In this document: in pieces, positions 114 to 37,988 of the stretch
Position numbering within the stretch: position 1 is the first letter of the stretch
How the letters are laid out: the number at the start of each line of letters is the position of its first letter
From: a virus
Strand: one strand, 5' to 3'
Virus record (IMG/VR): IMGVR_UViG_3300029951_000071
Location: 1-37,988 of that record
DNA: 37,988 bases
The notes under the pieces: generated by a model
Told to the model about the DNA's origin: nothing
What the model saw: the letters and a program-made list of their open reading frames with translations, nothing else
Databases searched by the model: none
Position numbers and translations under genes: made by a program

Positions 114-354
114 GCGCATAGGGAAGCGGCAAGCGCTCATAGCGAGTCGCCGTATAGATGACGCCCTGGTTCTTCGGGATGGTCAGCTTTTCGCCGAATT
201 GCGAAATGACGATCTTGCGCTGCGCGATGCGCAACGTCTTTTTCGCGATCAACAGTTCAATGTCGTTCGCGATGGTCTGGTTGGTCGGGCCGGGCGAGTA
301 GTTAGTCACGCCACGGCTGAAAACGGATTTGAAGAACTGAGAAAATTTACCCAT
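1..354 (-). CDS. Major capsid protein, N4-gp56 family (5' part)
   Basis: This is the N-terminal 118 codons of the capsid gene, which continues at the other end of the window because the sequence is circular. The ATG is at 354-352, preceded by GGGAG five bases upstream. The translated start is MGKFSQFFKSVFSRGVTNYS and it runs without a stop to base 1. Joined through the repeated ends, the full protein is about 473 residues. N4-gp56-type proteins build the icosahedral shell. The gene lies directly downstream of the acidic scaffold-like gene, as expected for a capsid. At the join, codon 118 reads AAG (Lys) here but ACG (Thr) in the other copy of the repeat. Confidence 0.88.
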   Translation of the reverse strand, partial: MGKFSQFFKSVFSRGVTNYSPGPTNQTIANDIELLIAKKTLRIAQRKIVISQFGEKLTIPKNQGVIYTATRYERLPLPYAPLSEGVAAAGQAITIAQVNATAQQWGDLVRVTDVADMK

Positions 355-366
355 GACAACTCCCGG

Positions 367-1149
367 TTAAATACGACTGATATTCACTCCTGCCAGTCGC
401 TTCTCAATTTCCTCGATGCTATCGCCGCCGCCACCGCCAGATGAGCGAGCATCCGACCTGACACCAGGCATCTTTCCGCGAGAAGCGCTGTCGCCTTTTT
501 TCGCGGGTTTTGTTGGCGCCTTCAGCTTACCGTCGAGCATGTCTTCGCCCAAACAAAGGGCGAGCAATTTCTTGCGTGGAGCGTTCGGATTTTGCCTCTT
601 CATTTCCTCGACTTTATCCTTGTACCGCTCTGCGGCCTTCGGATTATTCATGGCAATGCGATCAAATTCCGCCTGGTCCTTCAAGTCCCTGGCTTCAGCG
701 AGTGCCTGCTGGCTGTTGAACTCAGCCGCCCGAGCGTTGCGTGCCGACTGGATGTTGTAGCGCGTCCAGCTATCGGCGTTCGGGTCTTGCAGCAGCTTCT
801 CTTCTTCCTGCCAGAGTCTTTGCGCTTCGGTAACCTGGGCGTTCGGATTTGCCTGCTGCCTCGCAGCGGCCAACTCTTCACGCGCCTTTTTGGCGTCGTC
901 TTCGGCTCGTTGTGCGCGCTCACGAGCGGCGCGCATATCCTTTTGATATCGTGATTCAGGCTTTCCGGCCGGCGCCTCTTCCGTCTCTTCTTCCTCGGTC
1001 TCCGTTTCGGGTTTAGCTTCTTCCGTTTCGGTTTCTTCGGTTTCTGTTTCGGTTTCGGCCTCTTCCGTTTCGGTCTCCGATTCCTCAGATTCCTCGCCAA
1101 TACCACGGGACAAGACAAGCAACAAAAACGACTTCAACAAATCCCACAT
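367..1149 (-). CDS. Scaffold-like acidic coiled-coil protein
   Basis: 260 residues. A short hydrophobic N-terminus (about residues 2-16) is followed by an acidic low-complexity stretch of Glu-Thr repeats (about 20-60). After that comes a charged helical region (about 65-190, predicted coiled coil by eye) and a basic, glycine-rich C-terminus ending in a short helix. Acidic, helical, with a basic tail and placed just upstream of the major capsid gene: this is the usual profile of a phage scaffolding protein, which guides capsid assembly and then leaves. The start is supported by GAGGT seven bases upstream. No protease domain is fused to it, so maturation cleavage, if any, would need another protein; the metalloprotease-like gene just upstream is a candidate. 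Confidence 0.68.
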   Translation of the reverse strand: MWDLLKSFLLLVLSRGIGEESEESETETEEAETETETEETETEEAKPETETEEEETEEAPAGKPESRYQKDMRAARERAQRAEDDAKKAREELAAARQQANPNAQVTEAQRLWQEEEKLLQDPNADSWTRYNIQSARNARAAEFNSQQALAEARDLKDQAEFDRIAMNNPKAAERYKDKVEEMKRQNPNAPRKKLLALCLGEDMLDGKLKAPTKPAKKGDSASRGKMPGVRSDARSSGGGGGDSIEEIEKRLAGVNISRI

Positions 1150-1216: not shown

Positions 1217-1603
1217 TTATTCGTATTGCTTCAGGTGCTTTCTGCGCTCTGCATTCGAGGGATGCGAATACGTTTCCCTTTCGTCATAGCGCAGCAATTC
1301 CAACAGCGCCGATGCATGCCCGCGCTGCGCGGCATATGCATCGGCCTCTAATTCCTGCTTGCGGCACAGCCTGAAAAATAACCATGGCGTGACCAGCAAA
1401 CAAAGCCACCCTTTCTCAAGGTGGTGCAGATCGACATGCCCCTGTTCATGCGACATTACGGCATTGCGCAAATGCCGGGGCAACTCTAAAAACGGCTTTC
1501 CCACAACAACAAACTTGAACCAAAAAAACGATGCAGAGAGCGCAATGAAATCGCCATCAGAACGAAACACCCTCACAGCGACTTGCTGCCCTTGTTGATC
1601 CAT
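1217..1603 (-). CDS. Minimal M48-like membrane zinc metalloprotease
   Basis: 128 residues. It contains HEQGH within SHEQGHVDLHHLEKG, the HExxH zinc and catalytic motif. About 30 residues later comes ELEADAYAAQRGH, matching the third zinc ligand region (E in ExxAD) of M48-type gluzincins, and then SHPSNAERRKHL, like the conserved HP..ER region downstream. A hydrophobic segment (WLCLLVTPWLFFRL) lies between the two motifs and another precedes HExxH, suggesting a membrane-associated enzyme. Typical M48 proteins are 250-300 residues or more, so this is a stripped-down catalytic core. It overlaps the end of the preceding gene by 31 bases and sits two genes upstream of the capsid. A role in head maturation is inference; degrading host membrane proteins is an alternative. 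Confidence 0.7.
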   Translation of the reverse strand: MDQQGQQVAVRVFRSDGDFIALSASFFWFKFVVVGKPFLELPRHLRNAVMSHEQGHVDLHHLEKGWLCLLVTPWLFFRLCRKQELEADAYAAQRGHASALLELLRYDERETYSHPSNAERRKHLKQYE

Positions 1604-2805: not shown

Positions 2806-4959
2806 TTAACCTCTTGGGACTCCGCCCGCAATCTGGTCGGGATGAATGGCGCCGGCCGGTTGCTGGGCCGCCTTACCCGGTGCTGGTTGCGCGCCAGGGC
2901 GGGGCGTACCGGCCACACCTGGCGCTGCGCCACCGCCCGGAATTCCTGGCTGGCCGCCTTGCGGCTGTTGCGCCGCCATGGCCATCTGCCGCTTTTTCTG
3001 CAACTGCTGCATGTGCGCCTGCATGTGATTCCGAATCAAGCCGGCTGGGTCTTTGGAAATCTCCCCTGCCTTGTGATGCTCCTGCAGGTGCTGCACATCG
3101 TCGTCAAGCTCGTGAACTTCGACCATAAAGCCGTTGATCAGCATTTCGTTTTCAATGCCAGCATCGACCGTGTACTTGTTCCTATCGTCTATCAGAATTC
3201 TACCCGAAAGTTCCGAACCGAAAACATTGTCTGTCAGTATCTCCAAAATTGGGGCAATGTCAAGCTTTCTTCCATTCAACTGTTGTGGGGGGATGCCGCG
3301 CAACACGTTCATGGTCGAAATTTGCTGTTGCATCATCTGCATGTTCTTGACGTACTCGGTGCCAACCCATTGGAAAAAGTAGCGATTGCCCCATTCGTTC
3401 GGCGGGACTTTCTGCATTTTTGCCTGGACGCCGATTTCTCCCATCGTCATGATCGTGATGTCATCCTGGCGGAACTGACTGTCGTATTCGAACATCCGTT
3501 CGAGGATTGGATTCAGGATTTCCTCTTCAAAGCGCTCGGCATGGTCCATGATCGGAACGGATTGTTCCTGCTGCTGCGCGCCCATGGCGCCAGCGTTTTT
3601 CCGACCTGCGGGCATCTGACCCATCATCATGGGATTAACGTCCATGCCCTGCTGAATGCGCTGCTCGATGATCTGGGCCTGCTGCATGGCATCCTTCCAT
3701 ACTGCGGGGAAGGTCGCAAACTTGGTTGTGTTCGGATCGACCGGCCATACGGAAGCCAAGCCGATGACCAGCGAAGCCCAGTTCGGGTTTTTCTCCGGGT
3801 CGATCATGGTAATCGGCATATTCGAGTACATGGCGGAGTCCTGGCCCATGTTGAAAGTATCGTTCAGGCTCCACTGTAGCCACTTGACCGCCTCGACCGG
3901 GCTTTGTCCATTGAACGAGCCGGCCAGTCGATCAACCGGCGCGGAAATTTGCGGCCGCTTCTGACCCCATTGGGGAGCCTTGACCAGCCCGATTATTTCG
4001 TCTTCGCCGGTAAAGTAGATGTACGCCAAGACCTTCTTGCCGTCGCCGAAGTCGATGCGCGCCGTGGCCTCGAATATCAGCGCGAACTTATTGGTTCCCT
4101 CGGTCTGGATGCCGGCGTCGCCGACGCGCTTCTTTTCGGGGTTGTTTTCCTCGCGAGTCTTTTTCGTTTCCATCCACTCGCCGACATCCCTCACATTGTC
4201 GGGTAGGATAAAAATCCCTTCGTCTATCATCTTTTCGATCTGACCTTCAGACAGGCGTAGCTTTTGGCAAACGATGTGCGCCTTCTCGATGTCATTGCAG
4301 GTGGGCGGGATAACTACCAAGTCTTCGGTAGCGAAATCGGTAATCGTCGGCCCCTGCTCGACCACATCAGCCGATTCGATAACTTCTTCCTCGCTCTCAA
4401 TGTCCACGGCCTCGCCATCCAATTCCTCGACGCCTGGATTGCGCTTGATCATGTCGGAAACGTTGCGAATCTCGCTGAACCAATCGACGTACACATTCCA
4501 TTGCCCAGTCACATCGCCGGCATTGTAGACTGAACGGCAAACAGATTTCAGCTTGGTCGCCCGGATGTAATGCTCAAGCAATGACAGAACGGCAGTCGGG
4601 CGCAGGCTATCTGTGCCGATGGCATCGACATGCTTGTACTTAGTGGGGAAGTTCTGTTTCAGAGCGCGCTTGGAGCGGGCGCGGATGCAGTCTCGAACTG
4701 CGGGGATGTAGCACGTGTCGTTGCCGTTGTATTTCTGATTGCCGTCCGGGATGGCGTTGTAGATGTTCCAATATTCGGAGATAGCGGTATCGGCTTCCTG
4801 CCGATTTTCGTATGCCTTGCGGATCGTCGGATAGAACTTGGCGCATGTCTTGTAGGGCTTGCTGTTCTTTTTGTCGGCCCAATTTTCTATTTTTTCAGCG
4901 GACGATTCCCCATCCTTGGTGGATTTTTTTGATTCGTCGTCAGTTTTTTTCTTCGCCAT
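2806..4959 (-). CDS. Portal protein
   Basis: 717 residues. Start chosen at the ATG 4959, which overlaps the terminase stop (TAATG) and has GGAAA before it; an upstream in-frame start would add nine residues. The protein begins with a Lys/Ser/Glu-rich tail and continues with a long helical body (YENRQEADTAISEYWNIYNA, WLQWSLNDTFNMGQDSAMYS). It ends in a Gln/Met-rich helix and a Pro/Gly/Gln-rich tail of about 60 residues. Size, position directly after the large terminase and before head genes, and the helix-rich body with a central alpha/beta region fit the large portals of podoviruses. The portal forms the dodecameric ring through which DNA enters and leaves. Confidence 0.85.
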   Translation of the reverse strand: MAKKKTDDESKKSTKDGESSAEKIENWADKKNSKPYKTCAKFYPTIRKAYENRQEADTAISEYWNIYNAIPDGNQKYNGNDTCYIPAVRDCIRARSKRALKQNFPTKYKHVDAIGTDSLRPTAVLSLLEHYIRATKLKSVCRSVYNAGDVTGQWNVYVDWFSEIRNVSDMIKRNPGVEELDGEAVDIESEEEVIESADVVEQGPTITDFATEDLVVIPPTCNDIEKAHIVCQKLRLSEGQIEKMIDEGIFILPDNVRDVGEWMETKKTREENNPEKKRVGDAGIQTEGTNKFALIFEATARIDFGDGKKVLAYIYFTGEDEIIGLVKAPQWGQKRPQISAPVDRLAGSFNGQSPVEAVKWLQWSLNDTFNMGQDSAMYSNMPITMIDPEKNPNWASLVIGLASVWPVDPNTTKFATFPAVWKDAMQQAQIIEQRIQQGMDVNPMMMGQMPAGRKNAGAMGAQQQEQSVPIMDHAERFEEEILNPILERMFEYDSQFRQDDITIMTMGEIGVQAKMQKVPPNEWGNRYFFQWVGTEYVKNMQMMQQQISTMNVLRGIPPQQLNGRKLDIAPILEILTDNVFGSELSGRILIDDRNKYTVDAGIENEMLINGFMVEVHELDDDVQHLQEHHKAGEISKDPAGLIRNHMQAHMQQLQKKRQMAMAAQQPQGGQPGIPGGGAAPGVAGTPRPGAQPAPGKAAQQPAGAIHPDQIAGGVPRG

Positions 4960-6956
4960 TATTTCCTGCCGGGGAGTGCCGACCAATACGGAATACCAGT
5001 TTGGTTCCTAGCATTCATGGCCGGTTTCGCCGCATTATCTGGCCTGTTGATCGCAAAAGTCAAGCATTCGAGCGCCTCCATCAGCGTGCGCGCAGGACCG
5101 CGCTCGGGTTCACTGCCACGTTCGCCGCCCGACTTCACCGGCCAGTTATACCCCTGTGCCATGGCCTGCATGACGTGCCGCGCATTGGAGTCAACACCAA
5201 GCAGCCTGCGCCCGCGCATCTCGGTCCGCAGCATCGATGCGAGCGAGCCGCGCAGCGCTTGGCTGTACTCGGAGCGGTTCGCCCGCCAGCCGGAATCCTT
5301 CAGCGCGGCAACCAGGGGGTTCCGTCCCACTTGATCGTAGGCATCCCCAGGTATCCAGGAGGTGACTGATCTTCCCGGATAGCTAGCGCGTACGAGTTTT
5401 GCAATAGCGGGGATAGCATCTCCGGGGAGCATTGGAGAGGTCCAGTCGGCCAGTACCGTGAGGTAGTCTCCGTCGAAATCGCACAAGACTGCGCACGTCT
5501 CAGCGCCGCTTGAGCTCGCCGCAAAAAGAAGGGGGGTCCTGACCTTTGAGATAAAATCGTAGATGATGTTGACTTGCCCGAAGTCACCATAAATCGGAAG
5601 TCCGGAAAATACGCGAGGTGCATAGGCCAGAGCATTGAGAACATCCTTCAACCCCGAAGGGAAGTTGAGCAACTGCGAAATCAGCCGGGCATGCTTCTGC
5701 CGGCCACCGACGAAAACAACATCCTTGGCCTCGAAGAACGGCTGCAAGCCCATGATGAACTGGTTCTTGTCGCGGTCCTGCGGCGCGTTCATCGGCTTGA
5801 TGGTCACCATCTGGCCGGTCTCAAGCATCTTGGCGCGCATCGGCTGTAGCAGCCATTCATCAAGCGAGTTCTTTTCGATGTGAACGTCGCAATCATCGTT
5901 CCGCGCCGACGCATCGAAGGCCAGATTAACCACGCCATCAGGCTTCAAGAATGCGCCATCAGATTCGTGCACGTAAATCCGCGTGCCGATTTTGGAAATA
6001 ACCACGTCCCCGGTCTGGTCGGACTTCTTGATGTCGGTCGTGCGGGCCGGGTCGATGATGACCTTGCGCGGCGCATACATGCGCGGCGCCACATCCTCGA
6101 ACACGAAATTTTCTTCAACGAACGACTTGCCCATTTGTCCGGTGGGAACCAGCATGTATTCCTGGTTGAACTGCGCCAGCAAGCCCTCAGTCTGCATTTG
6201 GTCGCGCTTCTTGCGAATCCATTCCATGGGGTAGCGGTCAGGCCAAGCAGAGATGCATTCGGGGTCATCGATATCACGATCGCAAATAGGGAACATGCCA
6301 TTGACGAAGTTAGGCGACGAGCGCGCACGCGTCATGATGCAATCGCCGGCAAGCGGTGTGCCGGTGATGCGGAGCTTCCCGAGTTCGGTATCCATGGCCG
6401 GAATAAGCTCGATGAAAATGCGGTCCCAGTTTTGCTTAACGGTCAACGTGTCGCGCACCCGCTCTTTGTTCTCGATGTCGTCAAGGTAAGCCCGATCCGG
6501 GCGGTGTTGCAAGTGCTTGTAACCACGGATTTCCTCTTCCCATCCATGCGCCTCGATGCAAACCCCGTTCGGCAGAACGATCTTGTTTTCCGACCACGTA
6601 TAGCCTTTCCCAGTCTGCTTGCCGAACAAGTTGTAAATCCGCATGTTCGTCGCGAGTTCGTACTTGATGGCCTCAAGACGCTGGCAGGCCTTCGTGTAGG
6701 TCTCGCCGAAAATAAGAGCGTAGTGGAAATTTTCGAACAGTCCTTCAATCGCCAAAAACTCTTCGGAAAGAGTTGATTTCGCGCCCTCCCGGAATGCTTC
6801 AATCGACACCAAAGGATCGGAGGCGCGCCACATGTCCATGATCGAAACGTGGAACATTGGGCTGGCTTGCCGGTGACGATGAGGAAACAACATCGCCGAC
6901 GCCAAAGCACGATCCTCGCTGATGTGCTTGAGGGTGGTTTCTTTGTTTTGGCTCAA
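4959..6956 (-). CDS. terL: Terminase large subunit
   Basis: 665 residues; ATPase and nuclease of the DNA-packaging motor. The N-terminal ATPase half shows a Walker-A-like REGAKST (about 56-62), a Walker B DRAYLDDIE (about 154-161) and a coupling motif RITGTP (about 196-201). The C-terminal half opens with the RNase-H-like nuclease motif KVIIDPARTTD followed by GDVVI. There is an extra C-terminal region of roughly 170 residues after the expected nuclease core, with its own acidic VLCDFDGDY and IPGDAYD segments. The start is TTG at 6956, overlapping the stop of the previous gene (TTGA). This is the first large gene of the late operon. Confidence 0.9.
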   Translation of the reverse strand: MSQNKETTLKHISEDRALASAMLFPHRHRQASPMFHVSIMDMWRASDPLVSIEAFREGAKSTLSEEFLAIEGLFENFHYALIFGETYTKACQRLEAIKYELATNMRIYNLFGKQTGKGYTWSENKIVLPNGVCIEAHGWEEEIRGYKHLQHRPDRAYLDDIENKERVRDTLTVKQNWDRIFIELIPAMDTELGKLRITGTPLAGDCIMTRARSSPNFVNGMFPICDRDIDDPECISAWPDRYPMEWIRKKRDQMQTEGLLAQFNQEYMLVPTGQMGKSFVEENFVFEDVAPRMYAPRKVIIDPARTTDIKKSDQTGDVVISKIGTRIYVHESDGAFLKPDGVVNLAFDASARNDDCDVHIEKNSLDEWLLQPMRAKMLETGQMVTIKPMNAPQDRDKNQFIMGLQPFFEAKDVVFVGGRQKHARLISQLLNFPSGLKDVLNALAYAPRVFSGLPIYGDFGQVNIIYDFISKVRTPLLFAASSSGAETCAVLCDFDGDYLTVLADWTSPMLPGDAIPAIAKLVRASYPGRSVTSWIPGDAYDQVGRNPLVAALKDSGWRANRSEYSQALRGSLASMLRTEMRGRRLLGVDSNARHVMQAMAQGYNWPVKSGGERGSEPERGPARTLMEALECLTFAINRPDNAAKPAMNARNQTGIPYWSALPGRK

Positions 6957-10432: not shown

Positions 10433-10720
10433 ATGGCATCAGTAATTGGTAAAAAGGTAATTGTTCGCACATATTCGGCAGGCGTGCATTTCGGCACATT
10501 GGCGGCGCTCGACGGCAAGAATGCCACGCTGACCGATACGCGCCGAATCTGGTATTGGGAGGGCGCATTCACACTTTCGGCAATCGCGCTCGATGGACTG
10601 AGCAAAAAATCAAAACTTAGCGTGGCGGTGCCGGAATTGATCCTGACCGAAGCAATCGAAATTATCCCCGTCAGCGACAAGGCCGAGAAGATTTTGACTG
10701 ACATGCTAGCTCACAAGTGA
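10433..10720 (+). CDS. DUF6948-like phage protein
   Basis: 95 residues. Start is the ATG at 10433, six bases after AAGGA. The protein has an N-terminal small beta-barrel-like region (KKVIVRTYSAGVHFGTLAAL, then DTRRIWYWEGAFTLSAIALDG) and a C-terminal half ending in LTEAIEIIPVSDKAEKIL. The G.HFGTL, RRIWYW.GA.TL and EIIP elements match a small family I know from many phages as DUF6948; its function is not known. It ends directly before a strong hairpin, so it may be the last gene of the first early transcript. Confidence 0.7.
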   Translation: MASVIGKKVIVRTYSAGVHFGTLAALDGKNATLTDTRRIWYWEGAFTLSAIALDGLSKKSKLSVAVPELILTEAIEIIPVSDKAEKILTDMLAHK

Positions 10721-10755
10721 TTTTTTCGGCCCGTCAATAACGGGCCGAAATTTCT
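10721..10755 (+). terminator. Terminator-like hairpin after the first early genes
   Basis: A perfect 11-bp stem (TTTCGGCCCGT at 10724-10734 with ACGGGCCGAAA at 10740-10750) with loop CAATA, followed by TTTCT. This is a strong rho-independent-type hairpin with a modest U tract. It sits between the DUF6948-like gene and the (GGGNNC)n array, so the recombination genes beyond it would need read-through, antitermination or their own promoter. Confidence 0.65.
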
Positions 10756-10759
10756 CATC

Positions 10760-10858
10760 ATGCTGACAGACGAAGACAAAGAAGGCGGGTCCGGGTCCGG
10801 GTACGGGCACGGGGACGGGCACGGGGACGGGTACGGGCACGGGGACGGGTCCGGTTAA
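10760..10858 (+). CDS. Short Gly-X repeat protein (first copy)
   Basis: 32 residues: the leader MLTDEDKEG followed by 11 Gly-X units (X = Ser, Tyr, His or Asp) and TAA. The leader and first repeat units are identical in DNA to the next gene, so the two are a duplication. No good ribosome site precedes it. It may be a decayed or alternative copy, or the open frame may exist only because the hexamer repeat has no stop codons. Confidence 0.4.
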   Translation: MLTDEDKEGGSGSGYGHGDGHGDGYGHGDGSG

Positions 10859-11170
10859 TTGGAGACTGCAATGCTGACAGACGAAGACAAAGAAGGCGGG
10901 TCCGGGTCCGGGTCCGGGTACGGGCACGGGCACGGGCACGGGGACGGGCACGGGGACGGGCACGGGCACGGGTCCGGGCACGGGTACGGGTCCGGGTCCG
11001 GGTCCGGGTACAGGCACGGGGACGGGCACGGGTCCGGGTACGGGTACGGGCACGGGTACGGGTACGGGTACGGGCACGGGTCCGGGTCCGGGGACGAGTA
11101 CGGGTGCGGGTACGGGTCCGGGTCCGGGCACGGGTACGGGGACGGGGACGGGGACGGGGACGGGGACGGG
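10787..11170 (+). repeat. (GGGNNC)n hexanucleotide array, G-quadruplex type
   Basis: Two blocks of GGGNNC units, 11 units at 10787-10852 and 45 units at 10898-11167 plus a final GGG. They are separated by a spacer that includes a second copy of the 27-base leader. Almost every unit keeps GGG and the last C; the middle varies among TC, TA, CA and GA. G-triplets recur every six bases with three-base loops, so the plus strand satisfies the canonical quadruplex pattern many times over and the minus strand is C-rich. All six frames are open across it for this reason. Confidence 0.9.
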
Positions 11171-11173
11171 TGA
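10871..11173 (+). CDS. Gly-X repeat protein (second copy)
   Basis: 100 residues: MLTDEDKEG, then 45 Gly-X units and a last Gly. X is almost always Ser (TCC), Tyr (TAC), His (CAC) or Asp (GAC), with single Cys and broken units (YRHG, DEYG). The ATG has GGAG six bases upstream, better than the first copy, so translation is plausible. A Gly/His/Asp/Tyr repeat would be disordered and could bind metal, but the DNA repeat rather than the protein may be what matters. The next gene (RecE-like) starts 12 bases after the stop. Confidence 0.5.
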
Positions 11174-11184
11174 TAAAGGAAAAA

Positions 11185-12102
11185 ATGATGCAACCGGGAA
11201 TTTTCCAAATTTCAGACGAGCAATACCATGCCGATCCGTGCAGCGAGCCGAGTCTGTCAAGAAGTCTCCTGAAGTTGCTCGTGAATGAGTCGCCGCGCCA
11301 CGCATGGTACGCGCATCCGCGCCTCAATCCAGCATACCAGGGCGAGGAAAAAAGTAAGTTCGACCTAGGTACGGTGGCGCATGCGCTGGTGCTGCAAGGA
11401 ATCGATCGAATGGAAATCGTGGACGCGACAGACTGGCGCACCAAGGCGGCAAAGGAGGCGCGAGACGATGCGAGGCTGCGTGGGATGGTGCCTCTGCTCA
11501 CCCATCAAGCGGAAGACGCTCTGGCGATGGTTGGGGCCTTCCATGCGGCTGTTGCGAACTGCGCCGACTTGTCGGGCATCACGCTTGCCGATGGGAAGGC
11601 CGAACAGGCGATTATTTGGCGCGACATACAACGAGGCGGAGAATACGTTATGTGCCGCGCCAAGCCGGATTGGCGGTCCAACGATGGAGCATTGTTGATC
11701 GATTACAAAACAACCAGTGGAAGCTCATCGCCGGCTGCGGCAGAGCGTCAGATAATGGGGCAACTGGACGGCGACATCCAGGCGGCGTTCTACCTGCGCG
11801 GAAACAAGGCAGTTTGCGGAGTCGATGCGCAATTCGTTTTTGCGGTTCAGGAAACGAGTGCGCCTTATGCCGTCTCGTTCATCGGCGTGTCGCCAACCTA
11901 CATGGCGCTCGGCGAGGATAAATGCCGCGTCGGTATCTCGCTATTCGGCGAATGTCTGCGGCGCAACGAATGGCCGGGATTCGAGAAGCGTATTTATTGG
12001 AGCGAGCCGAAAGCTTGGCAGTTGGGCGCGTGGGCTGATAAGCAGAATTTGGAGGCGATGAATGGCAGTGATCAGGATGCCCAAAGGCAAGGTTCCGAAT
12101 AG
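11185..12102 (+). CDS. RecE-like exonuclease (PD-(D/E)XK)
   Basis: 305 residues. I chose the ATG at 11185 because AAAGGA lies just upstream; the frame is open further back only through the hexamer array. The C-terminal half contains [11 protein letters not shown] followed by LLIDYKTTS, the D...D-x-K catalytic core of the RecE/exonuclease VIII (DUF3799-type) nucleases. A conserved [20 protein letters not shown] start and a Gln-rich helix ([20 protein letters not shown]) also fit. The enzyme resects duplex ends to give 3' single strands for annealing. It overlaps the HNH gene by 41 bases and is followed by a DUF1351-like protein and a Sak4-like ATPase, a normal phage recombination module. Confidence 0.85.
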
Positions 12103-12476: not shown

Positions 12477-13532
12477 ATGGAATACAAGATCGCAGAATAT
12501 TCGGCAACAGCCGCAGCATTGGCAGACCTAAATCACAGATTCAAGGGCGTGGTGTTCGACGTGTCGAAAAAGGAGGGCATGGTAGATGCAGTAAAGGCGA
12601 GAGCCGAATTGCGCGGATATTACGTCTCTCTCGAAAAGATGCGAAAGGAATTGAAGGCGCCGGCATTGGAGCGATCACGTCTGATCGACCATGAAGCAAA
12701 GATACTGGATGCAGAAATTCATGCGCTGCACGATCCAATTGACGAAACGATAAAATCGGAAGAAACGCGGAAAGAGCGAGAGCGCGAAGAAAGATTGCAG
12801 GCCGAGGCCAATCGCAAGGATGAAATCAACGCAAAGATTGCGAGAATTATCGAAGCGCCAGCAAAATTCGCCGGAAAGACATCCGGAGAGATAAGGGTGG
12901 CGTTGGATCAAATGCGCGGAATTGACGTGTCTACCTGGGCGCAAGAATTCGAAGTGAAGGCAGACGAGGCGAAAAAGAACGGAGTAGCCGCACTGGAGCA
13001 GTTGCTTGCCGGAACAGAGGAATCCGAAAAGGCGAAGGCTGAAGAGGAGGCGCGAATCGCCAGAGAGCGAGAAGAACTGGCACGGCTGCGTGCCGAACAG
13101 GAGCAGAGGAGCCGACAAGAGCAGGCCAGGATAGCGGAGGAAATACGAGTGCGCGCCGAGCAAGAGGCGATGCACCGAGCTAAGATCGAGGCGGAAGAGC
13201 GCGCCAGTCGAGAGCGCATAGAGGCTGCGGAACGTATTGCGCGTCAAGCCAGAGATGCCGAGGAGGCGAAGCTCAAGGCAGAACGTGACGCGGAAGAAAA
13301 GCGCATCAAGCAGGAGCGCGACCGAGTCGAAGCCGAACAGCGAAAGCTACACGAGGAGCAACGTCAAGCCAGAGATGCCGAGGAGGCGAAGCTTCGCGAA
13401 ATAAAGCGTCAAGAAAATGAAATGCTTGACGCCAAGATGATGCTTTCGACATTCCGAGAAAGGTTCGGAAAGATTGAGGAATTTGCGCCAGTCATAAAGG
13501 CGATCAATCAAGTTCTAAAGGTGGCAAAGTGA
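12477..13532 (+). CDS. DUF1351-like coiled-coil protein of the recombination module
   Basis: 351 residues from the ATG at 12477 (GGAGAG upstream). The N-terminal 130 residues (YKIAEYSATAAALADLNHRF, VKARAELRGYYVSLEKMRKE, LKAPALERSRLIDHEAKIL) match what I know as the DUF1351 pattern. That family sits beside RecE-, RecT- and ERF-type genes and may bind or protect DNA ends. Residues about 200-320 are a continuous Glu/Arg/Lys/Ala coiled coil. A perfect 32-base repeat (13242-13273 and 13362-13393) encodes RQARDAEEAKL twice, evidence of internal duplication. The stop overlaps the next start (GTGA). Confidence 0.7.
   Translation: MEYKIAEYSATAAALADLNHRFKGVVFDVSKKEGMVDAVKARAELRGYYVSLEKMRKELKAPALERSRLIDHEAKILDAEIHALHDPIDETIKSEETRKEREREERLQAEANRKDEINAKIARIIEAPAKFAGKTSGEIRVALDQMRGIDVSTWAQEFEVKADEAKKNGVAALEQLLAGTEESEKAKAEEEARIAREREELARLRAEQEQRSRQEQARIAEEIRVRAEQEAMHRAKIEAEERASRERIEAAERIARQARDAEEAKLKAERDAEEKRIKQERDRVEAEQRKLHEEQRQARDAEEAKLREIKRQENEMLDAKMMLSTFRERFGKIEEFAPVIKAINQVLKVAK
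13242..13393 (+). repeat. 32-bp direct repeat within the coiled-coil gene
   Basis: Bases 13242-13273 and 13362-13393 are identical and 120 bases apart (40 codons, in frame). Both encode the same coiled-coil motif. They mark an in-frame duplication and a possible site for deletion or length variation by recombination. Confidence 0.85.
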
Positions 13533-14647
13533 CATTCACATTCAGGCCAGCAATACGCGAAGGCGTAAATCTGCTGATTGGCATCGCAGGCGGAACCGGA
13601 TCAGGGAAAACTTTCTCAGCGATGCGCATGGCATCAGGCATTGCCGGTGATCGTCGCTTTGCGGTAATCGATACCGAGAATGGACGTGCCCGCCACTACG
13701 CGGACCGCTTCCAATTCGACGTGTGCGATCTGGCAGCGCCGTTCCGCCCGGACAGCTACGCAGAGGCGATCCTGGCCGCTGACAAGGCTGGTTATCCGGT
13801 GATCGTCGTTGACTCGATGTCGCACGTTTGGGCCGGAGATGGCGGCGTACTGGACTGGCAGGAAGAAGAGCTTGACCGGATGGCCGGCGACGATTGGAAG
13901 AAGCGCGAGTCCGTAAAAATGGCTGCTTGGATTCGACCCAAGGGAGCGCACAAGCAGATGGTGCAGAAGCTGCTGCAAGTCAAGGCGCATTTGATTCTGT
14001 GCTTCCGGGCAGAGCCGAAAATTGAAATGGTAAAGAACGAAAAGGGCAAGATGGAAATCATTGCCAAGCAGTCGTTGACCGGGCTGGATGGCTGGATACC
14101 GGTCTGCGAAAAGAGTCTGCCTTTCGAGCTTACCGTCTCGTTCCTCATGACCGCAGACCGGCCAGGATATCCGAAGCCGATCAAGTTGCAGGAGCAGCAT
14201 AAGGCGCTATTCCCACTCGATCAGCCAATCGATGAGCGATCCGGCCAGGGCGTTGCCGCATGGGCCAAGGGCGGCAAGGTCGAGCCGACGAAGGAGCAAG
14301 GTTTAGCGAATGCAATAAAAGAAGCAGGATTTGAGGTTGCGGACGTTCTGAGGGTTTGGAAAAAGAATTCGCTCGCCGAAGTAACGGACGTAGGAGCGGC
14401 GATTGCATGGCTGGTAAAGGTGAAGGCCAAGCTTGCAGTGCAAGCGGCGCCTGAGACCGCCTCGCAAGCCGCAGGACCATCCAAGGTCACCGTCGAATGG
14501 CTGATGGGGCGATTCGATGCCTCCACCGACGTGGATTTACTGAAGGCCGACGGAGCGTTGATCGAGGAACTTCCCGAATCCGACCGTGACCAGGCGAACG
14601 AATCCTATGCCTACAACTTTGACCGACTGACGAAAGGTGCGCCATGA
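13529..14647 (+). CDS. Sak4-like RecA-fold ATPase
   Basis: 372 residues from a GTG at 13529 (AAAGGTGG upstream, GTGA overlap). Walker A is GGTGSGKTFSAM (about 21-32); Walker B is PVIVVDSMSHVW (about 87-98). The order of motifs, AVIDTENGRA after Walker A and VKAHLILCFRAEPK later, fits the phage AAA/RecA-like ATPases of the Sak4 type. These act as single-strand annealing or exchange proteins with a partner exonuclease. The C-terminal third is a separate helical tail (KEQGLANAIKEAGFEVADVL, VEWLMGRFDASTDVDLLKAD), probably a helper-domain. Its place after RecE-like and DUF1351-like genes supports the recombination role. Confidence 0.8.
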   Translation: MTFTFRPAIREGVNLLIGIAGGTGSGKTFSAMRMASGIAGDRRFAVIDTENGRARHYADRFQFDVCDLAAPFRPDSYAEAILAADKAGYPVIVVDSMSHVWAGDGGVLDWQEEELDRMAGDDWKKRESVKMAAWIRPKGAHKQMVQKLLQVKAHLILCFRAEPKIEMVKNEKGKMEIIAKQSLTGLDGWIPVCEKSLPFELTVSFLMTADRPGYPKPIKLQEQHKALFPLDQPIDERSGQGVAAWAKGGKVEPTKEQGLANAIKEAGFEVADVLRVWKKNSLAEVTDVGAAIAWLVKVKAKLAVQAAPETASQAAGPSKVTVEWLMGRFDASTDVDLLKADGALIEELPESDRDQANESYAYNFDRLTKGAP

Positions 14648-14865
14648 GTCTGCTACTCCAAACCGCGAAAGCGATCCTGCATGAAGTCGATGGTATCGAA
14701 GGCGGCTATGATCCGAATTCTTACATCCCGCCGCATCTTGTCGAGGCGCTACGCGGCGCGATTGAGCTAGAAGAATTTCCCAAAAATCAAGTTTCAGGTC
14801 TGAGAAACTATAGCTTGCATCCGGCGTTTCAAAAGGCAATCGAAGATTGGAGAAAGGGAAAATGA
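14644..14865 (+). CDS. Unknown small protein
   Basis: 73 residues, starting in an ATGA overlap with the ATPase gene, so probably coupled to it. Helical, acidic (AKAILHEVDGIEGGYDPNSY, HLVEALRGAIELEEF). No recognised family. It also overlaps the next gene by four bases. Confidence 0.6.
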   Translation: MSLLLQTAKAILHEVDGIEGGYDPNSYIPPHLVEALRGAIELEEFPKNQVSGLRNYSLHPAFQKAIEDWRKGK

Positions 14866-27128: not shown

Positions 27129-27779
27129 TCAGAATGAAAATTCCAACGCAGCAGTGGGCGAATAGCCCTTGTAAATGCCGGGCACCGCATCGCCCTTGGC
27201 ATGCGTCGGAATAGCCGACAACAGGAAAGCCACATTGCCGGTGATGCGATAGCCCACAGATAGGAATGGATCGTACATGATCTTGTTGTCATGCGTTTCC
27301 TGGCCGAACTGGGGCGCGCAACCGTAGCACCCAACGAAGTCAGGAACGACTTCGTGCCACGTCGGGCGCGTCGCCATGACGCCGCCCTCGATGATCCACG
27401 AATCGATGTTCTTCCGCGCCGCGATGAATACCCCATCCACCTCGCCAGAACCGTACCAGTGCGACAGGGGCAGGCACGCGCCATTGCAATGCGTCGGAGA
27501 ATTGGCATTGTAATTCCAATCCTCGCCCACGGCCAGCGCGGAAGAAGTTGCCTTGCCGATGTAATCATAACCGGCGCCGAACTGCCAGCCATCTTCTGAC
27601 TTGTCGGTGTAATACTTCAGCGCGACAGACGGCGAAGTCATGTGCAAATCGTACGGAAATCCCTCCTGATACCAGATGCCATTCCCGGCTTGGCTAAAGT
27701 GGGTCGCGCCCAAGTCGAGCATGATTTCGCCAGCAAAGCACTGGGAGCAAAACAGCATCAAGAGGGCTGCATATCGCAC
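27129..27779 (-). CDS. Outer-membrane beta-barrel-like protein with signal peptide
   Basis: 216 residues. MRYAALLMLFCSQCFA-GE is a Sec signal with an A-type cleavage site. The mature part alternates hydrophobic and polar residues in strand-like runs (PSVALKYYTDK, GWQFGAGYDYIG, YDPFLSVGYRITGNVAFL) and ends GYSPTAALEFSF, with the C-terminal Phe that the Bam machinery recognises. Four cysteines (CNGAC, CYGC) suggest two disulfides in loops. A phage-encoded outer-membrane protein brings Lom of lambda to mind, which changes the host surface. It could block superinfection or aid lysis. It sits among late genes. Confidence 0.72.
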   Translation of the reverse strand: MRYAALLMLFCSQCFAGEIMLDLGATHFSQAGNGIWYQEGFPYDLHMTSPSVALKYYTDKSEDGWQFGAGYDYIGKATSSALAVGEDWNYNANSPTHCNGACLPLSHWYGSGEVDGVFIAARKNIDSWIIEGGVMATRPTWHEVVPDFVGCYGCAPQFGQETHDNKIMYDPFLSVGYRITGNVAFLLSAIPTHAKGDAVPGIYKGYSPTAALEFSF

Positions 27780-29132: not shown

Positions 29133-29322
29133 CGCCCTCATCCTCATGGCGCGTCCGCGCCGTGCGCCCGATCCATCCCAAATTGCGCAGCGATTCCAAA
29201 ATTCTCAAACCAAACCAGACCACAGTAAGAATGGCGGCAATATGCGGCAACGCATCAAAAAAAGTTGCAATCCCGGCGCCGGCAGCAAAGCCGTCAATCA
29301 CATGCTTGGCATCCTCGTTCAT
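29122..29322 (-). CDS. Holin
   Basis: 66 residues from the ATG at 29322 in an ATGA overlap. Polar start MNEDAKHVIDGFAAGAGIAT, hydrophobic span LPHIAAILTVVWFGLRIL, and a charged tail. This matches a common single-pass phage membrane protein encoded directly before the endolysin (DAKH..DG.......W.P..AA.LS..W...RI.E). Its job would be to form the lesion that lets the cytoplasmic endolysin out. Confidence 0.75.
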   Translation of the reverse strand: MNEDAKHVIDGFAAGAGIATFFDALPHIAAILTVVWFGLRILESLRNLGWIGRTARTRHEDEGDES

Positions 29323-30656
29323 AGGTTCACCTGCATTGTGTTTTTCGATGCCCCAGCACCGCCAGTAAGGCCTGAGTTGGACGATCCTGCCGACCCTGCG
29401 ACAGGCGCAGTAGATGTCAGCGTGCCAGCGCCCATGTTGTACATTTGCACTCGCCCGCTGCCGCCTGAGCCGCCACCAATGCCGCCTGCGCCGCCCGTGC
29501 CCACTCCGTTTCCGGCGTTTCCGCCCGCGCCACCGGATACGTCTACCGCACCCGTGATCGCGCTGCCAGTCTCCGAGCCGAAGGCAATCAAAACCCACCC
29601 ACCGCCGCCGCCGCTACCGCCGCCGCCGCCTCCTGCGCCAACAGCAGAGGCGTAAGCACCGCCTCCCGTGCCGCCAGCGCCACCGATGGCTTGAAAGATG
29701 CCCGCAGTGGAATTTGTGCCGCGTGCGATGACGTTTGCGCTTATGGCGATACCGCCAGCACCACCACCACCACCGCCACCGCCACCAGCATCCTCGTTCG
29801 AGGTAACGATACCTGCGCCGCCGCCGCCGCCAGGGCCGGATTGACCTGCGAAAAGCACGGAAATGGTTGCCACTGGCTCAGAGTTACATAGAGGAAGAGT
29901 AGGATAAACCCCGGGGTAATAGGTCCCGACAGTTGCCGTTCCGCCCGCGTACCCAGCACCAAAAACACCAGTCCCACCAGTGCCGCCATTAAGCACGGGA
30001 CCGCCTTCGGAATTGGCATTGCCGCCAGACGTGCCGACAGCCCCGCCAGCACCACCAGCGCCAGATGCCGCAGCGCCGCTACAGGAGTGGCTGGCAACCG
30101 CACCCGTAGCAGCGCCACCCGTACCTTCCCCGCCAGATGTGCCGGTGCCGCCATTATTGCCAACAGTTCCATTCATATAGAACGATCCGGCAGGCGCAAC
30201 GGATATATCAAGCGTGCCGGACACAAAAATTCTGAACCCGCCCGTATTGATGGCGCAACCTGACTGCACAGTCAGGTTGTTGTAGAATATATCGGAGACA
30301 AGAGTAGACGCTCCCGTGCAGGTCACATTGCCGTTCGATCCATCGCCAAAATAACCTGCTTGGGAAATGGAGACCGCTCCCGAAGACCCGTTAGCCGCTG
30401 CCGTAATCAAACCCTTGGCATTGACCGTGATATTAGCGTTGGTATAGCTGCCTACGTTGGAATTGACCGTCGCAAGCGCGGTCGCGCAGCTTCCCGCGCT
30501 AGTTGTCGCATCACCAGTAAGCGCCGGAAGCTGCGCGCAAGATGCCGATCCAGTCAGTTGAGAAAACGAACTTGCGCCGCTTCCGCCCTTGGTCGTAGTC
30601 TGCGGGAACGCAAGCGAAGTTGCGAGCAGGAGAGCGCAGAGAATAATCTTTTTCAT
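29319..30656 (-). CDS. Glycine-rich adhesin-like protein with signal peptide
   Basis: 445 residues. MKKIILCALLLATSLAFPQT is a signal-like N-terminus. The first 100 residues are Ser/Thr/Ala-rich. The second half holds long Gly runs (GPGGGGGAGIVTSNE, then GGGGGGGGGAGGIAI) alternating with short strands (GGFRIFVSGTLDI, WVLIAFGSETG, GRVQMYNMG). Gly-rich stacks separated by strands recall polyglycine-II adhesins such as the T-even gp38 type. It starts in an ATGA overlap with the S74 fibre gene, the same order as a fibre and its tip adhesin. The signal peptide is unexpected for a virion protein. Confidence 0.6.
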   Translation of the reverse strand: MKKIILCALLLATSLAFPQTTTKGGSGASSFSQLTGSASCAQLPALTGDATTSAGSCATALATVNSNVGSYTNANITVNAKGLITAAANGSSGAVSISQAGYFGDGSNGNVTCTGASTLVSDIFYNNLTVQSGCAINTGGFRIFVSGTLDISVAPAGSFYMNGTVGNNGGTGTSGGEGTGGAATGAVASHSCSGAAASGAGGAGGAVGTSGGNANSEGGPVLNGGTGGTGVFGAGYAGGTATVGTYYPGVYPTLPLCNSEPVATISVLFAGQSGPGGGGGAGIVTSNEDAGGGGGGGGGAGGIAISANVIARGTNSTAGIFQAIGGAGGTGGGAYASAVGAGGGGGGSGGGGGWVLIAFGSETGSAITGAVDVSGGAGGNAGNGVGTGGAGGIGGGSGGSGRVQMYNMGAGTLTSTAPVAGSAGSSNSGLTGGAGASKNTMQVNL

Positions 30657-36807: not shown

Positions 36808-37988
36808 TTACTCGGTTGCCGTGCCAGCCGAATATCCGACGCTGAAGGCGCTGGACGATTCGGTACGCGACATGTAGGCGTTGTTCAAGATGATGTTGCC
36901 ATACATCGTTTTCCAAGTCGCCACCTTGGTTTGGTTCATCGGGTCGTACTTGTCGGGCATCGTCAAGTAGGTGTATTTGATGTTGTCCAGCATGCAGGTG
37001 CCGTAGGCGTCTTTGCCGAAGAAGAAGGTTGGGAACACCGTCACCCCGGTTGCCGGCGCAGCAGGCGGCGTTTGGGCCGCGCCGATGCCGGTGATAACCA
37101 CCGTCGAACCGGAAGCCAGTTGCGTGGCTTGGCCGGCCAGCGGACCCATTGCCGGACCGGAAGCAGACAGGCCGAGATTCGTCGGCGAAGTCGTTGTGCC
37201 GATATAGATGCTGAACACATACCCGGCCAGAGTCGGAAGGGTAACGCTCAGCGAGCCGCTACCCGCGCCGCCGACAGCAGCGCCAGCGCTCACCTGATAG
37301 ACGTTTTGCTCAACCGAGGTTAAGACTGGTGCCGCCGTGATCTGGATGTAGTAAGTATTGTTCGCCAGAGCGCCGCCCGTTGCTGAACCAGCGCCATTGG
37401 TCGGCGAAGCAACGCCAGTCCAGTATGGGACCATGTTGCTGGTACAGGAACGGATGCCACCCCAGTAGCCAAGGTCGCCGTTGTACAGACGATTGATGTC
37501 GGAATAGCCCCATGCCGTGGCGATGGTGCTGTTCTGGCGCATATCCTGCTCGACCAGATTGTGCATGACCGCGATGTAGTGCGGCATGGCGGCTGGGTCT
37601 TTGGGCTTCACGGCCTTGCCGGCAGTGACAAAGATGTCCGTCGCCTCGGAGCCGTCGAACATGGGAGCGCCGAACGTCGAAAGAGAACCCAGTTGCTTCG
37701 AGAACTCGATAGGCGTCATGACATCAGTAGCCACGATGCCGGCTCGGTTGGCACGACCATTCGCATAGTTGACCTGCGTACCGGTCATCAAAGTGGTGAA
37801 GGCATTGCGCTCGATGGTTTCAACCTGCTGAATCGCCAGAAGGTCGGTGCCCTTTTTGAACAGAGGGTGTGCGATCGTCATGTCGGCGACATCGGTCACG
37901 CGCACCAGGTCGCCCCATTGCTGGGCGGTCGCGTTGACCTGGGCGATGGTGATGGCTTGGCCTGCGGCGGCGACGCCTTCCGACAGCG
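36808..37988 (-). CDS. Major capsid protein, N4-gp56 family (3' part)
   Basis: This is the C-terminal part of the capsid gene, ending with TAA at 36808. It carries the blocks I associate with the N4-gp56 family: HYIAVMHNLVEQDMRQNST, WGYSDINRLYNGDLG, then FFFGKDAYG and a C-terminal TWKTMYGNIILNNAYMSR stretch. Between YNGDLGYWGG and FFFGKDAYG there is an extra segment of about 125 residues (roughly 273-398 of the full protein). It is rich in Gly, Ala, Ser and Thr and looks like an Ig-like beta domain displayed on the capsid surface. An internal GTG at 37905 is not the start; the frame is open to the window edge and continues at base 354. A strong intrinsic terminator follows. Confidence 0.9.
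   Translation of the reverse strand, partial: LSEGVAAAGQAITIAQVNATAQQWGDLVRVTDVADMTIAHPLFKKGTDLLAIQQVETIERNAFTTLMTGTQVNYANGRANRAGIVATDVMTPIEFSKQLGSLSTFGAPMFDGSEATDIFVTAGKAVKPKDPAAMPHYIAVMHNLVEQDMRQNSTIATAWGYSDINRLYNGDLGYWGGIRSCTSNMVPYWTGVASPTNGAGSATGGALANNTYYIQITAAPVLTSVEQNVYQVSAGAAVGGAGSGSLSVTLPTLAGYVFSIYIGTTTSPTNLGLSASGPAMGPLAGQATQLASGSTVVITGIGAAQTPPAAPATGVTVFPTFFFGKDAYGTCMLDNIKYTYLTMPDKYDPMNQTKVATWKTMYGNIILNNAYMSRTESSSAFSVGYSAGTATE
37876..37988. repeat. Terminal direct repeat, right copy (circular join)
   Basis: Second copy of the 113-base end repeat, with 112 of 113 bases identical to the window start. The single difference changes Thr to Lys in the capsid protein. It could be an assembly-edge error or real population variation. 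Confidence 0.92.

Follow-up and report, generated by a model that had tools for sequence, protein, structure and literature searches.

The head module of the viral DNA analyzed here (IMG/VR record IMGVR_UViG_3300029951_000071, positions 1–37,988; hereafter, the window) encodes a small M48 metalloprotease that is probably a zinc-dependent prohead protease, one that would remove a capsid-targeting-like presequence shared by head proteins. This reading draws on sequence comparison, a structure model, and analogy with known phages, and we favor it because of the M48 fold, the invariant catalytic residues, the conserved place of the gene, and the matching of presequences within each phage. The initial annotation had already put an M48-like enzyme in the place of a head-maturation protease; that interpretation is plausible and is strengthened by the comparisons presented below, from which we infer cleavage of head proteins.

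The window is a circular contig: about 100 bases at its end recur at its beginning (positions 37876–37988 and 1–113, with a few bases differing at the very start). Its head module lies on the minus strand, in the order terminase, portal, 239-amino acid protein, 164-amino acid β-type protein, M48-like protease, acidic scaffold-like protein, and capsid protein. The genes for the terminase large subunit (4959–6956; phrog_38, E = 3.9e-37) and the portal protein (2806–4986; phrog_332 and phrog_1216) are followed by that of the 239-amino acid protein, whose N-terminus is signal-like, and by that of the β-type, decoration-like protein (1573–2067), whose stop codon shares bases with the start codon of the protease gene (1217–1576). 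The decoration-like protein has a weak PHROG match to ‘head scaffolding’, and the gene order here is the same in the relative L006. The acidic 260-amino acid protein (367–1149) had no family match in Pfam and PHROG searches; its role as scaffold is assumed from its composition and from the place of its gene immediately before the capsid gene. The ends of the window interrupt the major capsid gene, whose 5’ part at 1–354 continues at 37986–36808; the 3’ part (36808–37988, including the end overlap) matches phrog_1357, major head protein (E = 3.4e-15). The capsid protein is of the N4-gp56 type, as in the relatives (TIGR04387). Elsewhere in the window, a long simple-repeat stretch (10706–11305) occurs at the 5’ end of an open reading frame (11104–12102); its overlapping frames encode runs in which Pro alternates with Val or Arg with Thr.

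The protease gene lies between the portal and capsid genes. Its location between decoration-like and scaffold genes is as given in the initial annotation, as is the presence of an HEQGH and an ELEADAY motif in a 128-amino acid open reading frame (1217–1603, minus strand). The start at ATG 1603, on the other hand, is probably wrong. A GTG codon at 1576 overlaps the TGA stop codon of the upstream gene (GTGA) and yields a protein of 119 amino acids; the homologue in L006 starts at the matching place (TAATG), and residues 1–10 of the 128-amino acid form are the low-confidence part of the structure model. On this sequence evidence the gene probably spans 1217–1576.

The assignment to the M48 family made initially is borne out by a match to Pfam PF01435 (Peptidase_M48; E = 1e-6) that scores 29.2 bits and clears the curated cut-off of 20.3, and 49 of the 60 family members scanned have an M48 match at E ≤ 0.01. 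A profile built from four members reaches Ste24p (E = 1e-4) and ZMPSTE24 (E = 1.4e-3) in the PDB. The AlphaFold2 model has a mean pLDDT of 93.8 and a pTM of 0.86, and its top Foldseek match is ZMPSTE24, at a probability of 1.00 and an E-value of only 0.014. VIA-align likewise ranks ZMPSTE24 highest (Z 10.0), followed by BepA (9.2), Ste24p (9.0), and BlaR1 (8.3), with IrrE at 5.7. The superposition with ZMPSTE24 (6bh8) has an rmsd of 2.6 over 114 residues, with 29% identity. As in ZMPSTE24/Ste24p and BepA, the phage protein has the core fold, an HExxH motif, and a third-ligand glutamate in the ExxxD helix, but it is 119 amino acids long as compared to about 370–440 for these enzymes, lacks their membrane and accessory parts, and is encoded in a phage head module.

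Both motifs are kept in all 79 distinct complete homologues, with a spacer of 23–33 residues between HExxH and ExxxD in 76 of them. H52, E53, H56, E84, and D88 are invariant in a 60-row alignment, as expected under selection for catalysis. This alignment was made from 61 representatives, with L058 left out for its long insertion and the window row representing its identical copy L001; L179 was too long for inclusion in the family alignment. A chance motif or a non-gene is ruled out by the Pfam match together with the conservation of the motifs across the family. A serine prohead protease of the S77, S78, S49, or S14 type is likewise ruled out as the identity of this gene, which is an M48 zincin by both Pfam and structure. 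The 119-amino acid protein is a minimal M48 gluzincin core with little else, and is predicted from its sequence and model to bind zinc and to be proteolytic. The S78, S14, S49, and S77 profiles match nothing in the window, in whose head module no other protease was seen initially, and they match in none of the seven records searched (the window and six related ones).

Relatives were gathered by a capsid-protein search of IMG/VR, with the addition of eight loci from GTDB. The carrier phages form a large, mostly uncultured group; three of the eight GTDB loci (L119–L121) belong to named Paraburkholderia isolates, P. phenoliruptrix LMG 22037, Paraburkholderia sp. BL25I1N1, and P. tropica LMG 22274, and have the M48 gene. 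A home-made M48 profile finds the gene in most relatives, and HExxH is present in 113 of the 116 profile matches (79 distinct sequences), the remaining three being cut off. Scattering of the gene across relatives had been named initially as an outcome that would speak against a role in the head. Instead, the gene has the same place, upstream of the capsid gene and on the same strand, in 89 loci that span the portal-to-capsid interval, and it accompanies 69 of the 81 distinct capsid proteins from relatives spanning the whole of this interval. In the clade of the window the gene directly precedes the scaffold gene; in a more distant clade it is nearer the portal gene, about 3–7 kb before the capsid gene, and in L080 it overlaps the portal stop codon. 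A tblastn search of INPHARED phages with three family members gave no convincing homologue, with at most fragments at E 0.05–1. Among the relatives, a 79-kb contig (IMGVR_UViG_3300037852_000046; L168 and L178) has two such modules, each with a capsid and an M48 gene, perhaps from two neighboring or concatenated phages. The genome bin that contains the related head module L125 is labelled Candidatus Micrarchaeota, which is probably a binning error.

The strongest hint of the function of the M48 gene comes from matched presequences on the scaffold and capsid proteins, which lie outside the coordinates of the initial annotation and were not noted in it. In the phages with M48, both proteins have an N-terminal hydrophobic or amphipathic presequence of roughly 10–35 residues that ends in a phage-specific junction (e.g., SRG|V, FPG|V, LTLG|V, or SPG|V). 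In the window, comparison with relatives delimits these presequences as MWDLLKSFLLLVLSRG for the scaffold (1102–1149, minus strand) and MGKFSQFFKSVFSRG for the capsid protein (310–354, minus strand). The junctions of scaffold and capsid match within a phage: LVLSRG|I and SVFSRG|V, respectively, in the window; NLLLPG|I and DLLLPG|I in L055; LFIRPA|I and GLFRPA|V in L064; SFLTLG|A and SFLTLG|V in L067; and GLLFPG|V on both proteins in L121.

The match between scaffold and capsid presequences was evaluated by permutation. For whole presequences from 44 representatives, the score within a phage was 20.25, as compared to 14.49 (sd 0.58) for permuted pairs, with none of 20,000 permutations as high; some cut or misread scaffold N-termini were kept in this test, and five loci without a rule-based capsid junction were dropped. 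For the 7-mers at the junction (72 pairs), the corresponding scores were 17.29 and 7.96 (sd 0.78), again with none of 20,000 as high. Eleven loci without a readable scaffold junction were dropped from the junction tests, and each set of identical capsid cores entered them a single time; a few rule misreads were kept (e.g., L092 and L167), and the junction of L053 was set by hand. Both permutation tests ignore kinship among the phages. The capsid tree requires at least eight changes of the proline at –2 in the capsid junction, and scaffold and capsid are in the same state at this position in 89 of 100 phages. Across four independent pairs, co-changes of this proline amounted to 2.8 in the same direction, 0.0 in the opposite direction, and 1.2 with no difference, which is too few for significance; co-change directions were mixed for F/Y at –5 and T/S/R at –3.

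The same kind of junction extends to other virion proteins. It occurs at the start of decoration-like proteins in L064, L080, L119, L121, L154, and L183, and at the start of fibre-type proteins in L061, L066, L072, L085, L185, and L191; homologues of the latter in the window, L006, L158, and others begin directly after the junction. In L121 the junction is found on three head proteins (GLLFPGV twice and GLIFPAV). A short N-terminal peptide is thus common to several head proteins, as for a targeting sequence of the T4 capsid type. Five loci (L130, L133, L135, L141, and L149) have an apparent 33-residue insertion in the capsid presequence, between GLLWA and LFPGVTN, which close relatives such as L131 lack. 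The insertion leaves the junction LFPGVTN intact, as might be expected if the residues ahead of the junction could be dispensed with. Sec signal peptides end in A-x-A; the junctions, as read by eye, mostly lack such an ending. Sec-like signal peptides, also recognized by eye, are present on other proteins, namely those encoded at 2077–2796, 27129–27779, and 29319–30656 of the window, at 12646–14834 (minus strand) of L015, and at 6672–8600 of L080. These are virion-module and fibre-type proteins, and the phages that encode them include some that have the M48 gene and some that lack it.

The capsid N-terminus preceding the conserved core falls into two sets of lengths, 24–26 residues in one and at least 36 in the other, with nothing between. 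Among loci spanning the portal-to-capsid interval, presequence and M48 gene occur together in 89 loci (69 distinct capsid proteins), neither occurs in 12 loci (11 distinct capsid proteins), the presequence occurs without M48 in a single locus (L095), and M48 occurs without the presequence in none. Distinct capsid proteins are the better count, as several loci come from one contig. Eight of 185 capsid loci, including that of the window, were left out of this tally because the N-terminal part is cut off, and 36 distinct capsid proteins with a presequence and no M48 were not counted as absences, as their loci lack the full portal-to-capsid interval. No M48 match was found anywhere in four presequence-less records of 42–44 kb. 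On a capsid tree built from 91 cores plus two outgroups (L047, L066, and L196 not included), presequence and M48 gene require one change each. The co-occurrence is therefore a single event with no independent replication, and we have given it up as independent evidence.

One lineage, comprising L095, L127, and L128, counts against an M48 prohead protease in that its presequences are present; the 46-kb record of L128 has no M48 match and no match to the S78, S14, S49, and S77 profiles, its other genes having been read by eye. On the tree, the branch to L095 leaves the base of the M48 clade at a point without clear branching order. Either the presequence predates the protease, or the protease was lost or replaced in this lineage. 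A longer capsid presequence (LPGGFFAPG|L), with a similar one on the scaffold, was observed in L095, L127, L128, L197, and L198.

In the mechanism that we propose, a shared N-terminal presequence would be part of the scaffold and capsid proteins as they are made and, in some members, of a decoration or fibre protein as well. Like the T4 capsid-targeting sequence, the presequence may gather its proteins in the prohead; the M48 protease would then remove it around the time of assembly by cutting at or near the junction.

Alternatively, the presequences could be permanent or independent signals, serving in membrane nucleation of the prohead or in scaffold–capsid pairing, with the M48 enzyme degrading scaffold or misassembled head protein and leaving the presequence uncut. 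We consider this unlikely. Membrane binding by the presequences is conceivable given their hydrophobic or amphipathic character, M48 enzymes of solved structure include membrane proteases, and L095 and L128 have presequences without M48; however, the match between scaffold and capsid within a phage involves the residues of the junction, beyond hydrophobicity, and a 33-residue insertion is tolerated in the capsid presequence with the junction kept. Somewhat less probable still is removal of the presequences by a host protease, the phage M48 being an accessory or host-directed enzyme that sits in the late operon by chance. The constancy of its head-module place upstream of the capsid gene in the 89 interval-spanning loci argues against this, as do the invariant catalytic residues and the fact that all 11 distinct capsid proteins without a presequence come without an M48 gene. 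Paraburkholderia hosts do encode several M48 enzymes of their own (G009–G011), L128 has no phage M48, and host proteins have been proposed as targets of other jumbo-phage zincins (PMC7824862, accessible text).

A regulatory metalloprotease unrelated to the head, ImmA/IrrE-like or other, is very improbable. The M78 profile does give weak matches in six of 60 members (best E = 0.00062), and the window gene weakly matches phrog_87, ‘metallo-protease’ (E = 0.0053), but M48 matches are stronger and more common (49 of 60), the structural comparison ranks M48 over IrrE (Z 10.0 versus 5.7), and the gene sits in the head module. Returning to the M48 enzyme as prohead protease, we give about an even chance to its fullest form, in which a minimal M48 enzyme would replace the serine prohead protease. 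Its substrates would be scaffold, capsid, decoration, and sometimes fibre proteins, from which it would cut a common presequence that co-evolves among them, such that one N-terminal ‘ticket’ would both sort these proteins and mark them for processing.

According to the accessible text of PMC7411985, the prohead proteases studied all remove a propeptide from the N-terminus of the capsid protein, those of a number of phages also cut internal proteins such as scaffold, and those described have serine/histidine catalysis in common. The phage M48 protein resembles the serine prohead proteases (T4 gp21/S77, S78, S49, and S14) in its late-operon place and in the candidate N-terminal propeptide on capsid and scaffold, but differs from them in catalytic class and fold. 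The internal proteins of T4 have capsid-targeting sequences of 10–20 residues that are removed by gp21 (PMC7411985, accessible text). Like these, the presequences described here are short N-terminal propeptides common to several head proteins; unlike these, they are on the scaffold and capsid proteins themselves, are hydrophobic, and have a different junction at which they would be removed.

M48-labelled phage proteins are already in databases. An example is A0A6J5KHB9, a ‘Peptidase M48’ of an uncultured Caudovirales phage, which is similar to the window protein in predicted fold (TMq 0.71) but has 189 amino acids and no assigned role. In group 1 jumbo phages, a zincin-like metallopeptidase (AMR59696.1) has been proposed as a possible additional virion-maturation peptidase (PMC7824862, accessible text), and metalloproteases in virion maturation are therefore not new as a general idea. 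As described there, that enzyme accompanies a serine prohead peptidase, unlike the M48 protein of the window, and the term ‘M48’ is absent from the accessible text of PMC7824862. Our literature searches, whose scope mostly excluded subscription papers, returned no account of an M48 prohead protease accompanied by co-varying presequences. If it has this role, the M48 enzyme would, to our knowledge, be the first prohead protease of a non-serine class.

The three Paraburkholderia isolates carry such loci, and the proposed role of the M48 protein as prohead protease can therefore be tested. If this role is correct, a zinc enzyme would serve as prohead protease, and this step of capsid maturation would have been reinvented. 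Its cleavage signal would be readable across dozens of lineages, and would give virion proteins an annotation rule throughout a large, uncultured group of phages.
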